This document shows positions 2,119-22,224 of a stretch of 29,474 bases of DNA, in pieces. This stretch comes from a virus: the IMG/VR virus record IMGVR_UViG_3300035523_000138, positions 1 through 29,474 of that record; one strand, written 5' to 3'. The position numbers and the translations under genes were made by a program. Position 1 is the stretch's first letter; each line of letters starts with the position of its first letter. The notes under the pieces are model-generated. The model worked only from the letters and a program-made list of their open reading frames with translations, was not told the origin of the DNA and ran no database searches.

Positions 2119-2325
2119 CTAAACTCCTCTGACGTTCAATGCGCGCGGGCCTTTGGATTCCTGCTGAATGTCGAACTCGACGCGCTGGCCGGATGAAAGG
2201 CTCTTGCGGCCGGGCGCACCCAGAATGCCGGTATAGTGAACGAAGCAATCGGGCAGCGTCTTATCGTCGGGGCGGATGAAACCGAAGCCCTTCTGATCGT
2301 CGAACTTCTTCACTGTGCCCTGCAT
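2119..2325 (-). CDS. Cold-shock-domain protein (CspA family)
   Basis: A 68-residue single-domain OB-fold protein that binds single-stranded RNA or DNA. It has both nucleic-acid binding motifs: RNP1 KGFGFI (12-17) and RNP2 DCFVHY (26-31), and the family's closing pattern GPRALNV. An ATG at 2325 is preceded by GAAGGAGAAG, a good ribosome site. In bacteria such proteins act as RNA chaperones or antiterminators; in a phage it may help late mRNA translation or transcription, which is inference. It has a loop insertion between the RNP motifs and GQRVEFD, with LGAPGRKSL, that is common in variants of the family. The 109 bases between it and the methyltransferase gene hold no other gene that I can support. 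Confidence 0.93.
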   Translation of the reverse strand: MQGTVKKFDDQKGFGFIRPDDKTLPDCFVHYTGILGAPGRKSLSSGQRVEFDIQQESKGPRALNVRGV

Positions 2326-2359
2326 GATCTTCTCCTTCCATCGGGAAGGCTGCCGGCGT

Positions 2360-2986
2360 CTACTGGCGTTGCAGATGTCGCACGGCGGCGGTCAGGTACT
2401 TGATCTTTTCCGGGATGCTCATGACGTGAGGCGAAACAATGTTGACGCCTGCTGGGACGCCGGCGTAACCGGGATAAATAAAATGGTCCCACGCCTTCGG
2501 CAGCCGCGCGATCTCCACGCCGTGCTCAGGCGTGCATGCGTTGACGGCATCGTTCGAGTCTCCCGCGTTCAGCAGCCGGCGCTCATAGCAGTACCTCACG
2601 AAGCACCTGCCGCCGGGCGTATTGCGGACCATGATGACTGCGGAGTGAAAGTCCCGGCCGCCCCATTCAACAAGGCCAACATCGCCGCGCGGAAAGTCGG
2701 CATCGAGCGGGATGGCCTGATTAACGATCAGCGAATCACAATCGATGATGACGGCGACTTCGCAGAGCGGATTCTTAAGAGCCTGAAGCAAGAAGTAGAA
2801 CCGCTGAAAACTGAATTGCGAGGAACGCCAAGCCCGGCCTTGCGGTGTCGCGCGAGCTTCCAGAGGATCGCTTCGCTCAGCGGTGTATTGCCAGCCGTGC
2901 TTCGCTGCACAGCCACCGTTCCATGCCTCAACTACGGCAAGAACCGGCAGCACTTCACCGGCAGCATGTTGAATGAGCATCTTCAT
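2360..2986 (-). CDS. Glycosyltransferase-like protein, DxD type (copy 2)
   Basis: Likely nucleotide-sugar glycosyltransferase with a GT-A fold. The key sign is VAVIIDCDSLIVNQ (about 77-90): a hydrophobic strand ending in D-C-D, the metal and sugar-nucleotide binding DxD motif. The N-terminus MLIQHAAGEVLPVL matches the start of the other glycosyltransferase in this window (LIQHATGRHLALL, at 4259-4879), so the two seem to be paralogues. Between strand and motif lies an aromatic helix (FSFQRFYFLLQAL) like the one that packs under the nucleotide in this fold. No signal peptide or membrane segment is seen. The ribosome site is weak; ATG at 2986 or 2980 could be used. The substrate is unknown. A role in decorating virion proteins or host surface sugars is inference from its place among late accessory genes. 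Confidence 0.65.
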   Translation of the reverse strand: MKMLIQHAAGEVLPVLAVVEAWNGGCAAKHGWQYTAERSDPLEARATPQGRAWRSSQFSFQRFYFLLQALKNPLCEVAVIIDCDSLIVNQAIPLDADFPRGDVGLVEWGGRDFHSAVIMVRNTPGGRCFVRYCYERRLLNAGDSNDAVNACTPEHGVEIARLPKAWDHFIYPGYAGVPAGVNIVSPHVMSIPEKIKYLTAAVRHLQRQ

Positions 2987-3155
2987 GAGCGATTGCTTTC
3001 AGGCTGGCTTGCGCAGGGGAACCGGCGGTCGGTTCCGCACTGTGCTCGTTTCTCGCTTCGATCGACCGCCGATCGTCGGACTCTAGCTGGGGGTGAGTGC
3101 CGAACGCGTCACGGTTCAGGGTGCGGGACTTACGCGATGGAGTCCCCAGCTCCAT
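2955..3155 (-). CDS. Possible small hypothetical protein (66 aa)
   Basis: A weakly supported reading frame that fills an otherwise empty stretch between two genes. Its ATG at 3155 is preceded by AAGAGGGCTGCGA, a plausible ribosome site, and its end overlaps the start of the following glycosyltransferase gene by 32 bases. The product is polar, low in hydrophobic residues, with no domain that I recognise. AGCTGGGG, directly after the start codon, is complemented by CCCCAGCT on the same transcript about 50 bases downstream. If this is not a gene, then 2987-3172 is a leader region containing inverted repeats, including GGAACCG/CGGTTCC around 3017-3035. Confidence 0.25.
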   Translation of the reverse strand: MELGTPSRKSRTLNRDAFGTHPQLESDDRRSIEARNEHSAEPTAGSPAQASLKAIAHEDAHSTCCR

Positions 3156-3172
3156 TCGCAGCCCTCTTAGAA

Positions 3173-3409
3173 TTACAGAAAGCCGAGGAAGGGCTTCAGC
3201 ACGCCCAGGGCCTGCGTGGCGATCTGGACGAGTTCGGAGTTACTCTTCGCCTTTTCAGTTGCGGCCTTGATGCCGGCGGCGGCGGCGTCCACGGTCTCCT
3301 GCGGAATGCGGCCGGCCTTCACAGCTTCAGCGAGCTTTTCAAAGTCTCCAGCGGGCGTGTAGTCTTCGCTGTGCAGCGGGGCGGGGCTCGTACCTTGATT
3401 GTCTGCCAT
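3173..3409 (-). CDS. Small hypothetical phage protein (78 aa)
   Basis: A short acidic-to-neutral protein with a disordered N-terminus (first 20 residues rich in S, P, D) followed by an Ala-rich helical segment (about 21-66) and a hydrophobic C-terminal tail ending VLKPFLGFL. ATG at 3409 follows AAAGGGTTAGACG, a good ribosome site. It lies between the holin/lipoprotein gene and the glycosyltransferase gene, in the same direction. The C-terminal tail could touch a membrane, but it is too short for a confident transmembrane segment. I do not recognise a family. Confidence 0.6.
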   Translation of the reverse strand: MADNQGTSPAPLHSEDYTPAGDFEKLAEAVKAGRIPQETVDAAAAGIKAATEKAKSNSELVQIATQALGVLKPFLGFL

Positions 3410-3456: not shown

Positions 3457-4206
3457 CTACTTTGGCGGCGCAGTCGCACTGCTTGCGGGCGTCACAACCA
3501 ACTTCACAAGATCGACGGTTCGCTTGACCAGTTCGGTATAGTCGAGACCTTGCTGCGAGTACTCCTGAAGCAGCGCATCGAGATTCAGAAATGTGATCAA
3601 CTCCTTGCGCGCTTCATCGAGTGCCGCGTTCTGCTGTGCGATCTTCGTCCCGATCGCGGCCTTGCCGGCATCTTCAGCGAGCTTCAAGCGCGCCATGAAT
3701 GCCTTCGCATCGGCGACATTCACCTTGCCTTGCGCGTCCGCAGATTTCTCGAAAGTCTCGATGTCCCAGGCTTGTCTTGTGCCCAGATGCGCGAGGCATT
3801 CCTGACGATAGCCATCTTGCAGCGCGTCCGTGATCTTGCGCATCGCCTGATCGTAAGATGTCACCGCATCGCGCCGAATCTTTTCGCCTTGCGTGACTTC
3901 TGCTGGCGGCTTGCCGCAACCGGTCAGCAGCGCGGCCAATCCAATGCCGCAGAACAGAAGCGGAAGCGTGCTGCCGATGTTACTGGGCGGCGGCGTTGGA
4001 TTGAGCGACTGCGCAACCGTGCTCGTAGCGCCTCCGGACCAGCCATCCGCCACGCCCTGCCCGAGCACGTAGGAGATCGCAATCCCCGCGAGCGCGAGCA
4101 CGCTGTTTTCGTCCATGCCGAAAGCGTTCTTTAGAGCGACTGCGAGAAGTGTGGCCAGCGCCACCAAGAACTTTCGCCCGCCCAACTTTCCCAGCAAACC
4201 ATTCAT
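3457..4206 (-). CDS. Holin-like membrane domain joined to lipobox-containing helical domain
   Basis: Predicted lysis-associated membrane protein of 249 residues. The N-terminal part has two hydrophobic segments (about 11-27 and 35-50) with the pattern GRKFLVALATLL...ALAGIAISYVLGQGVAD, which resembles small phage holin-like proteins. After a Pro-rich linker (68-75) there is a third hydrophobic stretch (about 81-96) ending in LLTGC with Cys97, a textbook lipobox. The rest (about 100-235) is charged and helical and ends in a short Ala/Pro tail. Known spanin outer-membrane lipoproteins carry such a lipobox at their N-terminus, not in the middle, so this could be a holin-spanin fusion or two products from one frame. 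No ATG lies just ahead of the lipobox. ATG at 4206 follows AAAGGAGAGG, a strong ribosome site. Confidence 0.6.
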   Translation of the reverse strand: MNGLLGKLGGRKFLVALATLLAVALKNAFGMDENSVLALAGIAISYVLGQGVADGWSGGATSTVAQSLNPTPPPSNIGSTLPLLFCGIGLAALLTGCGKPPAEVTQGEKIRRDAVTSYDQAMRKITDALQDGYRQECLAHLGTRQAWDIETFEKSADAQGKVNVADAKAFMARLKLAEDAGKAAIGTKIAQQNAALDEARKELITFLNLDALLQEYSQQGLDYTELVKRTVDLVKLVVTPASSATAPPK

Positions 4207-4258
4207 GATGCCTCTCCTTTGAAAAAGGGTGACTGTCTCTTCGCGAAGATAAATACGT

Positions 4259-4879
4259 CTAGCGGACTTCGAGGGCGCGCTTCAGCCCGTGGACCTTCGC
4301 TGCCATACCTTCGATGCGGCAGTGAAAGGGGCGGCCGTGCCATGCGTGAATAACGACCGGGCGCAAGGGCAGCGACGCCGCGCCGCAAAAGTTGAAGGCG
4401 TCGTCAAGAGGCTCAACAAGCGCTTCGCTGTGCGCGCCGGCGAGTTCCTGCCAGACGGCGGTTTCATCGCGCCATACTCCGCGCGCAACCTCTCGCGCAG
4501 AGGCCGCGTAGATGCGTTGCAGCGCCGCCAGAAGGGCTGGCGAGCTGCGCAGGCACATTACGCCCGTGTTGAAGGAAGTGTTGCCCACAGTCATGCCCAG
4601 ATCGAATCCGGGCGCGAGGGCTTCACCAATATTGACTGTGGGGTTGATCCATAACGCGTCGGAGTCGATCCAGATCGCCGGCGCGCCAGCGGGCGCAGTT
4701 TCGCACCACTCGATCAGATCTGCGTACTTGTCGAAGTACGGATTGTTGGGGCAGCGCCGATCCGTGCGAACGCGGTACTCGATGCCCCAACGCGCGCAGA
4801 AGGATGCGTGAATCGGCCGCGCAAGCTCCAACAAAGCGAGATGCCGCCCGGTGGCGTGCTGGATCAGCGTTGCGCTCAT
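4259..4879 (-). CDS. Glycosyltransferase-like protein, DxD type (copy 1)
   Basis: Likely GT-A glycosyltransferase resembling the galactosyl/mannosyltransferase group that includes GMA12/MNN10 and related families. APAIWIDSDALWINP (about 66-80) carries the DxD motif at 72-74. Downstream come FNTGVMCLRSSPALLAAL, the family's NxG acceptor-side motif followed by a helix, and WRDETAVWQEL, the conserved D-E-x-A helix. HAWHGRPFHCR near the C-terminus supplies a late His-x-x-His as often seen in this fold. At 206 residues it is shorter than cellular enzymes but complete in core motifs. It starts 21 bases after the tail-tip gene, so it is probably co-transcribed with virion genes. I infer modification of a tail or capsid protein, or of host receptor sugars; donor and acceptor are unknown. 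Confidence 0.75.
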   Translation of the reverse strand: MSATLIQHATGRHLALLELARPIHASFCARWGIEYRVRTDRRCPNNPYFDKYADLIEWCETAPAGAPAIWIDSDALWINPTVNIGEALAPGFDLGMTVGNTSFNTGVMCLRSSPALLAALQRIYAASAREVARGVWRDETAVWQELAGAHSEALVEPLDDAFNFCGAASLPLRPVVIHAWHGRPFHCRIEGMAAKVHGLKRALEVR

Positions 4880-21326: not shown

Positions 21327-21719
21327 TTAGTGTCCGAGAACTTTCGCGATGGCAACCGTGATGCCGCCGCCCGCCGCGCCCGTCGCCATTGCGCCGATAA
21401 TTCCGGCGACGGAGTTGCCCTGCTTCTCTGCTTTCTTTTCGAGTTCCGCGATGCGCGTCGAGTGTTCGACGAAACGCTTGTCGCCTTCGTCCAGGCGCGT
21501 CTTGACCGCAACCAAGTCTTTGCCTTGCTCGATTTGCGTGTCGAGGATTTTCTCTTGCGTCACTTCGATCTTCGTCATCTGCCGTGTGAGCCGATCCTCA
21601 GTCGCGTGCACATCCGCGCGCACGCTTTCGATGCCGCGCGTCATCGTCTCTTGCACGCGCGCCGCGTACAGATCGAGAAGGTCGCGAGCCTCGGGGGTGA
21701 GCTTCACTTCGTCAGCCAT
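21327..21719 (-). CDS. Coiled-coil protein with C-terminal membrane anchor (XhlA-like layout)
   Basis: A 130-residue protein. Residues about 20-100 are a continuous amphipathic coiled coil (ARVQETMTRGIESVRADVHA, then TRIAELEKKAEKQG). Residues about 103-126 (VAGIIGAMATGAAGGGITVA) are a Gly/Ala-rich membrane segment ending in AKVLGH. This order resembles XhlA-type cytolysis helpers and other phage membrane accessory proteins. ATG at 21719 follows GAGGGAGAATCTAT. It is adjacent to a divergent plus-strand gene and shares a mirrored leader with it. A lysis role is inferred from layout only; a second holin-like candidate lies nearby at 22225-22506. Confidence 0.6.
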   Translation of the reverse strand: MADEVKLTPEARDLLDLYAARVQETMTRGIESVRADVHATEDRLTRQMTKIEVTQEKILDTQIEQGKDLVAVKTRLDEGDKRFVEHSTRIAELEKKAEKQGNSVAGIIGAMATGAAGGGITVAIAKVLGH

Positions 21720-21734
21720 ATAGATTCTCCCTCG

Positions 21735-21772
21735 CGTATTCACTCAGTGAGCACGTGTCGGGAGTGAATACG
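21735..21772. promoter_or_regulatory. Inverted repeat in the divergent intergenic region
   Basis: A perfect 11-bp inverted repeat (CGTATTCACTC at 21735-21745 and GAGTGAATACG at 21762-21772) with a 16-base spacer. Both genes also have GAATCTAT near the ATG, so the two leaders are mirror copies; the minus-strand copy has an extra block containing its GAGGGA ribosome site. A shorter palindrome TCACTCAGTGA lies at 21740-21750. It could be an operator acting on both genes, or the trace of an inverted duplication. Confidence 0.5.
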
Positions 21773-21777
21773 AATCT

Positions 21778-22224
21778 ATGTCCGATACCGTGGACGGCGC
21801 GATCAGAGACCTTGCGCGAGAAGGCGACGCGAAGGTTCTGCGCGCGTTCAAGCAAGCTCTGGGAAATGTGGAGGGCGTGTCGAAAGACTTGTGCCCGGTC
21901 GGGCACTACGGCCGCAAACGCGGCTTTGGCGGCCGGGCCGGCGCTGCGCTACAGAACTCGCTGCATGTTGAGTTTCTCGGACAGCAGGGAACGGACTTGA
22001 TCGGCCGCTGCATTTCGCCGCTGCCCTACGCGCGCGCGCAGCACGAAGATCTGTACTTCCATCCGGGCATCTACACCGGCGCGCCGGGCTCGCAGTACGA
22101 AGCGAAATTCTTCGAGAGAGCGGTTGCGATCATCTTCGGAAACGGCGTCGATCCTGCCGGCGATCCGGGCGGGCAACTCCGCACGCTGCCGGCAGGGTTT
22201 CAAGAATTGCTGGAGGGAGCTTAG
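21778..22224 (+). CDS. HK97 gp10-like minor virion protein, only plus-strand phage gene
   Basis: A 148-residue protein that resembles head-tail connector/tail completion proteins: CPVGHYGRKRGFGGRAGAAL then NSLHVEFLG, PLPYARAQHEDLYFHPGIYT and GSQYEAKFFERAVA, the familiar order of small-loop, strand, Y-A-x-x-x-E and H-P-G-x-x-T motifs of the gp10/HK97 family. It is encoded on the opposite strand to all other phage genes and converges tail to tail with the gene at 22225 (stops abut). The ATG at 21778 has GGAG 13 bases upstream, which is far, so it may be weakly translated or use another start. Coding on this strand is better supported than the poorer minus-strand frames there. Confidence 0.65.
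   Translation: MSDTVDGAIRDLAREGDAKVLRAFKQALGNVEGVSKDLCPVGHYGRKRGFGGRAGAALQNSLHVEFLGQQGTDLIGRCISPLPYARAQHEDLYFHPGIYTGAPGSQYEAKFFERAVAIIFGNGVDPAGDPGGQLRTLPAGFQELLEGA

Follow-up and report, generated by a model that had tools for sequence, protein, structure and literature searches.

A holin-family domain and a putative lipoprotein in a single open reading frame of an environmental phage

The fused open reading frame

The DNA considered here is the whole of the IMG/VR virus record IMGVR_UViG_3300035523_000138 (29,474 bases, called the window below), which carries terminase, portal, capsid and tail genes on its minus strand. The gene of interest is an open reading frame (ORF) on the same strand, at positions 3457–4206 (-). 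It encodes 249 amino acids (aa) between an ATG start and a stop codon, is supported by codon usage, and has a Shine-Dalgarno-like AGGAGAGG 5' of the ATG (4211–4218 (-), with AGGAG at 4214–4218). In this environmental phage a single chain appears to combine a holin-like membrane part with a probably lipid-anchored part, the anchoring signal being in the middle of the chain.

The protein can be divided into four parts. Residues 1–56 (4039–4206 (-); GGRKF ... SYVLGQGVADG) form a two-helix holin-family domain, recognised both by the profile phrog_9987 and by a hidden Markov model (HMM) of 60 relatives. A proline-rich linker follows (aa 57–79, 3970–4038 (-)), which includes the sequence NPTPPPS (aa 69–75) and has no Lys or Arg and no start codon. 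The third hydrophobic segment (aa 80–96, 3919–3969 (-)) resembles an internal type II signal and ends in LLTGC, the cysteine being Cys97; the lipobox L-T-G-C itself is aa 94–97 (3916–3927 (-)), with Gly at +2. The remainder, aa 97–249 (3460–3918 (-)), is the putative lipoprotein part, which is predicted at low confidence to be helical and has no detected relative. Kyte-Doolittle hydropathy with a 17-residue window peaks at about aa 13–29 (1.99), 37–53 (1.72) and 81–97 (2.07). The sequence and hydropathy thus bear out the initial annotation of this DNA, which had described a Pro linker followed by an LLTGC lipobox at Cys97.

The two parts are joined in one frame. A codon-usage model was trained on 11 other minus-strand gene stretches of the window and used to score 20-codon windows. 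Of the three forward frames, that of the ORF scored highest in all windows tried except aa 86–105 and 126–145, and across the junction (windows within aa 41–100) it beat the other forward frames every time; a reverse frame was slightly ahead at aa 81–100 and 226–245. After the GTG of codon 52, the next ATG, GTG or TTG is the TTG of codon 90, already within the hydrophobic segment, so that an internal start giving a normal lipoprotein precursor is unavailable, and the second product from an internal start that had been envisaged finds no support. These results support a single polypeptide that reads in one frame through the junction.

They also bear on whether two genes were joined artificially by an assembly or sequencing error, through a lost stop or a frameshift. 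The fusion is known from one virus record only, and in the relatives described below that encode the two parts separately, the holin and lipoprotein genes often overlap by 4 nucleotides (nt) in different frames. We nevertheless consider such an error highly improbable: codon usage at the junction disfavours a frameshift artefact, the frame offers no start codon for a separate lipoprotein gene, and a second fusion exists at another locus, L193.

The holin family and its neighbouring lipoprotein genes

The initial annotation regarded the N-terminal part as of holin type, and this is confirmed by a match to the phrog_9987 'holin' profile (E 0.0035 for the whole protein, 2.9e-4 for aa 1–68). A pattern scan for the motif Y-x-x-GQG-x-AD found at least 119 stretches, 96 of which passed a family filter. 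The family HMM was built from 60 domains of less than 75% identity, drawn from 97, and scores the window domain at 44.5 bits, a value that is partly circular because the nine-residue motif of the scan was derived from the window protein. The homologue in two Bacillus phages, Finn and Curly, is annotated 'holin' and lies 3' of a gene annotated 'endolysin'; these two score 51.6 and 48.9 bits with the HMM, and are matched weakly by tblastn (E 0.05 and 0.01). Of three holin queries run against named phages, two had no match; the third hit 14 Bacillus phage records at 33–35% identity and with E values from 7e-4 to 5e-2, where the product is called 'holin' in 4 records and 'hypothetical protein' in the other 10. 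Judged by these matches, the N-terminal domain is a member of PHROG 9987, a common family of small two-helix phage holins. The whole ORF had no match in Pfam. A pattern scan of genome_contigs gave no family member among the matches listed (at least 118 stretches), and a holin profile run against 8, 387 and 398 bacterial genomes gave no match, a result that is uninformative since the search had no positive control.

The window protein shares with these small holins the basic start, the [SG][RK]K motif, the two helices and the Y-x-x-GQG-x-AD motif, but differs from them in continuing into a third hydrophobic segment with a lipobox and a tail of 153 aa. Family members generally end soon after the domain, with a median tail of 5 aa among 81 non-redundant members and a longest tail of 62 aa, the 170 aa of L193 apart. 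Several adjoin genes for cell-wall hydrolases: besides Finn and Curly, locus L068 has a CHAP gene as the third after the holin-family gene, L039 has a PG_binding_1 gene just 5' of it, and L193 has an Amidase_2 frame. This proximity supports a role in lysis.

The initial annotation proposed to look for split versions in related phages, and these are present. The set examined comprised 80 non-redundant members (less than 80% identity, window excluded). Members needed 200 nt or more of downstream sequence, except those with a tail of 80 aa or more. A lipoprotein gene was counted if its start lay between -60 and +90 nt relative to the holin stop. Nine of the 80 have a lipoprotein gene directly after the holin gene (L017, L019, L022, L039, L049, L068, L098, L199 and L419), with starts at -50 to +9 nt from the stop. 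Two controls were taken. Among 941 ends of frames with 150 codons or more, 4 had such a gene (Fisher p 4e-8, although these frames may not be genes); with frames of 100 codons or more, chosen greedily so as not to overlap, there were 12 among 1261 (p 1e-6). Counting the close-looking pairs L022/L098 and L049/L419 once gives 7/78 (p 5e-5). The lipobox rule was broadened after L199, which has Gln in its lipobox, was seen; the stricter rule used before had given 7/70 against 4/847 controls.

Two further gene arrangements were observed in the family. L401 has a lipoprotein gene (2260–2511 (+), LSGC) upstream of the holin-family gene, with one gene between them. In L070, the gene after the holin-family gene (3031–3342 (+)) gives the impression of an i-spanin-like plan, with a hydrophobic helix and a coiled-coil-like body.

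The second fusion came from a scan for the motif QG-x-AD followed by a lipobox 106–136 nt further on, which returned 78 stretches. L193 is the only fusion among them, with a continuous holin-family ORF, a third hydrophobic segment and the lipobox LSAC, and 129 aa counted from the lipobox Cys onward. A companion scan at 137–167 nt (73 stretches) found no further fusion. The lipobox of L193 is at the same architectural place as that of the window protein, as the scan demanded; an unbroken frame through the hydrophobic segment was not a condition. Over their full length the two fusions are 24% identical, and the lipobox cysteines do not fall in one alignment column. The Amidase_2 frame lies 3' of the fusion, with possible starts 44 and 56 nt past the fusion stop, or earlier within the fusion. 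The unrelated tail of L193 suggests that this arrangement arose more than once.

Lipobox, topology and proposed processing

The lipobox was defined strictly as [LVI][ASTVI][GAS]C, the consensus in the form in which PMC6139136 quotes it. The window has 267 stop-to-stop frames of 60 codons or more, and only two of them have such a lipobox behind an uncharged hydrophobic 14-mer, namely this ORF and a 66-codon frame on the opposite strand. When the segment aa 80–100 was shuffled 20,000 times, this combination appeared in 0.5% of cases. The combination of hydrophobic segment and lipobox expected of a lipoprotein is thus found, at LTGC. An N-terminal signal with a basic n-region is not, the signal being internal and preceded by aa 51–79, which have no Lys or Arg.

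The orientation of the membrane segments was considered from the distribution of charge. Averaged over the 60 family members, the number of Lys and Arg residues is 3.70 in the N-flank, 0.58 between the helices and 1.38 in the C-flank (up to 15 aa). The first of these values is partly built in, since the member filter demanded two basic N-flank residues; the C-flank was unfiltered, and has at least one Lys or Arg after the AD motif in 95% of members, where the window protein has none. The family charges fit a hairpin whose two ends both lie inside; a third helix would then run outward and Cys97 would be outside. L193 has 3 Lys or Arg ahead of the third segment and the same number in the 15 residues that begin with the Cys. 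On balance we take an outward crossing of the third segment in the window protein as the more likely. A cytoplasmic Cys97 had been named in the initial annotation as fatal to its reading, and here the evidence is divided, the family charges placing Cys97 outside and the flanks of the segment itself pointing the opposite way.

The sequence shows one unbroken frame, a domain of the holin family and a lipobox, and relatives have the two parts as separate genes. We hypothesise that a lipoprotein gene and the gene for a small holin with two helices, lying side by side, became joined in frame; the topology, cleavage, role in lysis and destination of the product are inferred. On insertion of the chain the N-terminus would stay inside, helices 1 and 2 would make up the holin hairpin, and helix 3 would cross outward in the role of an internal type II signal. 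Once Cys97 had been lipidated by host Lgt, a cut by LspA just ahead of it would give two products, a holin part of 96 aa that stays in the inner membrane and a lipoprotein of 153 aa that is released. In a diderm host, Gly at +2 would direct this lipoprotein to the outer membrane, where it may act in disruption of the envelope, possibly of the outer membrane. We put the chance that this account as a whole is correct at about even.

Several observations weigh against it. The 29 residues before segment 3 (aa 51–79) have no Lys or Arg and aa 97–111 have three, so that by its charges the segment is a poor signal peptide by itself, with flanks that favour the reverse orientation. No adjoining lipoprotein gene is present in 71 of the 80 family members, and no fusion occurs among 77 non-redundant members from scans that made no demand for a lipobox (longest tail 62 aa), which indicates that fusions are rare. 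The tail aligns with the lipoprotein parts of four relatives no better than shuffled sequences do (fractions 0.35–0.70). None of the window proteins scanned, a subset of the whole, was recognisable as an endolysin, and the record may be a fragment.

Searches of viral_contigs, genome_contigs, phages and plasmids with the whole protein found no relatives, and against sequences in the PDB there was one chance-level match only (E 1.4). Compared with six-frame translations of 445 loci, the tail matched only itself. AlphaFold2, run on the single sequence, gave a mean predicted local distance difference test score (pLDDT) of 50.7 for the whole protein and 60.9 for aa 97–249 alone. The models are mostly helix, in agreement with the helical tail of the initial annotation, though at low confidence only, and a viral fold library searched with the low-confidence model gave a best E of 0.13. 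When the lipoprotein parts of relatives were compared with each other, the pair L068 and L193 gave a weak hint of similarity, its score being exceeded by only 1.3% of shuffles. Since the tail resembles none of the four lipoprotein parts compared with it, homology of the fused part with the split lipoproteins is not demonstrated, and the label 'lipoprotein' is given to it because of the lipobox and the gene neighbourhood in relatives.

The foremost alternative is that the protein stays uncut, as a holin of three helices with a periplasmic domain of 153 aa that would sense or regulate lysis, the lipobox being incidental. Its plan would then be like that of T4 T (PMC11413866), a holin whose C-terminal domain is large and periplasmic. 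The single helix with periplasmic domain of T4 T is not what is found here, where there are three hydrophobic segments. The lack of a basic n-region before the signal-like segment fits an uncut protein. Against it stand the strict lipobox exactly at the end of the hydrophobic segment, rare as this is among shuffles, the same anatomy in L193 (itself selected by lipobox) and the lipoprotein-type signals of nine split relatives (for which the lipobox was a search criterion), and we consider it rather unlikely.

Known lysis proteins, genome context and significance

The proposed product is comparable to two-component spanins with an Rz1-type o-spanin, in that a lipobox protein is encoded together with a lysis protein, but here the lipobox part is fused in frame behind the holin. 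Rz1 is smaller than the tail of the window protein. No i-spanin partner was identified in the window, whose other genes were not searched systematically. The 138-aa protein encoded at 21327–21743 (-) was considered as a candidate, but its coiled-coil-like body and C-terminal hydrophobic stretch are in the wrong order; it gives the impression of an XhlA-like plan and weakly matches phrog_2990, which has no assigned function.

Unimolecular spanins (T1 gp11) also carry a lipobox and transmembrane segments in one protein. According to PMC6139136, their lipoylation signal is N-terminal and their transmembrane domain C-terminal. The window protein has the reversed order and, by hydropathy, no C-terminal transmembrane segment, and does not qualify as one of them.

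The phage itself is, to judge from its proteins, divergent, with a terminase and portal that have only distant relatives in named phages. The terminase is less than 30% identical to the matches listed (20 of 2295 records in named phages), and the best matches of the portal are Paenibacillus phages at 26–27% identity. A phage tail protein and the terminase, used as queries, found no related virus record. Downstream of the fused ORF, after a gap of 47 nt, is a gene for a 78-aa protein with weak matches only (3173–3409 (-)). These two genes are flanked by paralogues of 208 and 206 aa with 27% identity (2360–2986 (-) and 4259–4879 (-)), which have D-C-D and D-S-D motifs and look sugar-transferase-like by eye. 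A 148-aa frame on the plus strand (21778–22224 (+)) lies amid the minus-strand structural genes; it appears head-tail-like by eye and has no Pfam match.

The lipoprotein part might instead serve to exclude superinfecting phages or to alter the host surface, the fusion merely securing its export. Llp of T5 and Cor are examples of such proteins. The position of the gene, 3' of the tail genes and between two paralogous D-x-D-motif proteins, would suit this function, as would the failure to recognise an endolysin in the subset of window proteins scanned. The N-terminal domain, being a holin-family hairpin that adjoins cell-wall hydrolases in several relatives, argues for lysis, and we consider a function outside lysis improbable.

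No holin-lipoprotein fusion was found in a limited literature search of titles and the beginnings of abstracts. Cytochrome b/c1 of Bradyrhizobium is a bacterial membrane polyprotein cut at an internal signal. If the fused protein is cut at Cys97, it would be a natural phage polyprotein matured internally by host signal peptidase II, and would provide a simple means for joint delivery of two proteins that act on the envelope. It would follow that a substrate of LspA need not start with its signal, and that predictors which consider only the start of a protein would miss such cases. The neighbourhood of holin and lipoprotein genes in some environmental phages is in addition a lead to lysis lipoproteins that have not been annotated.
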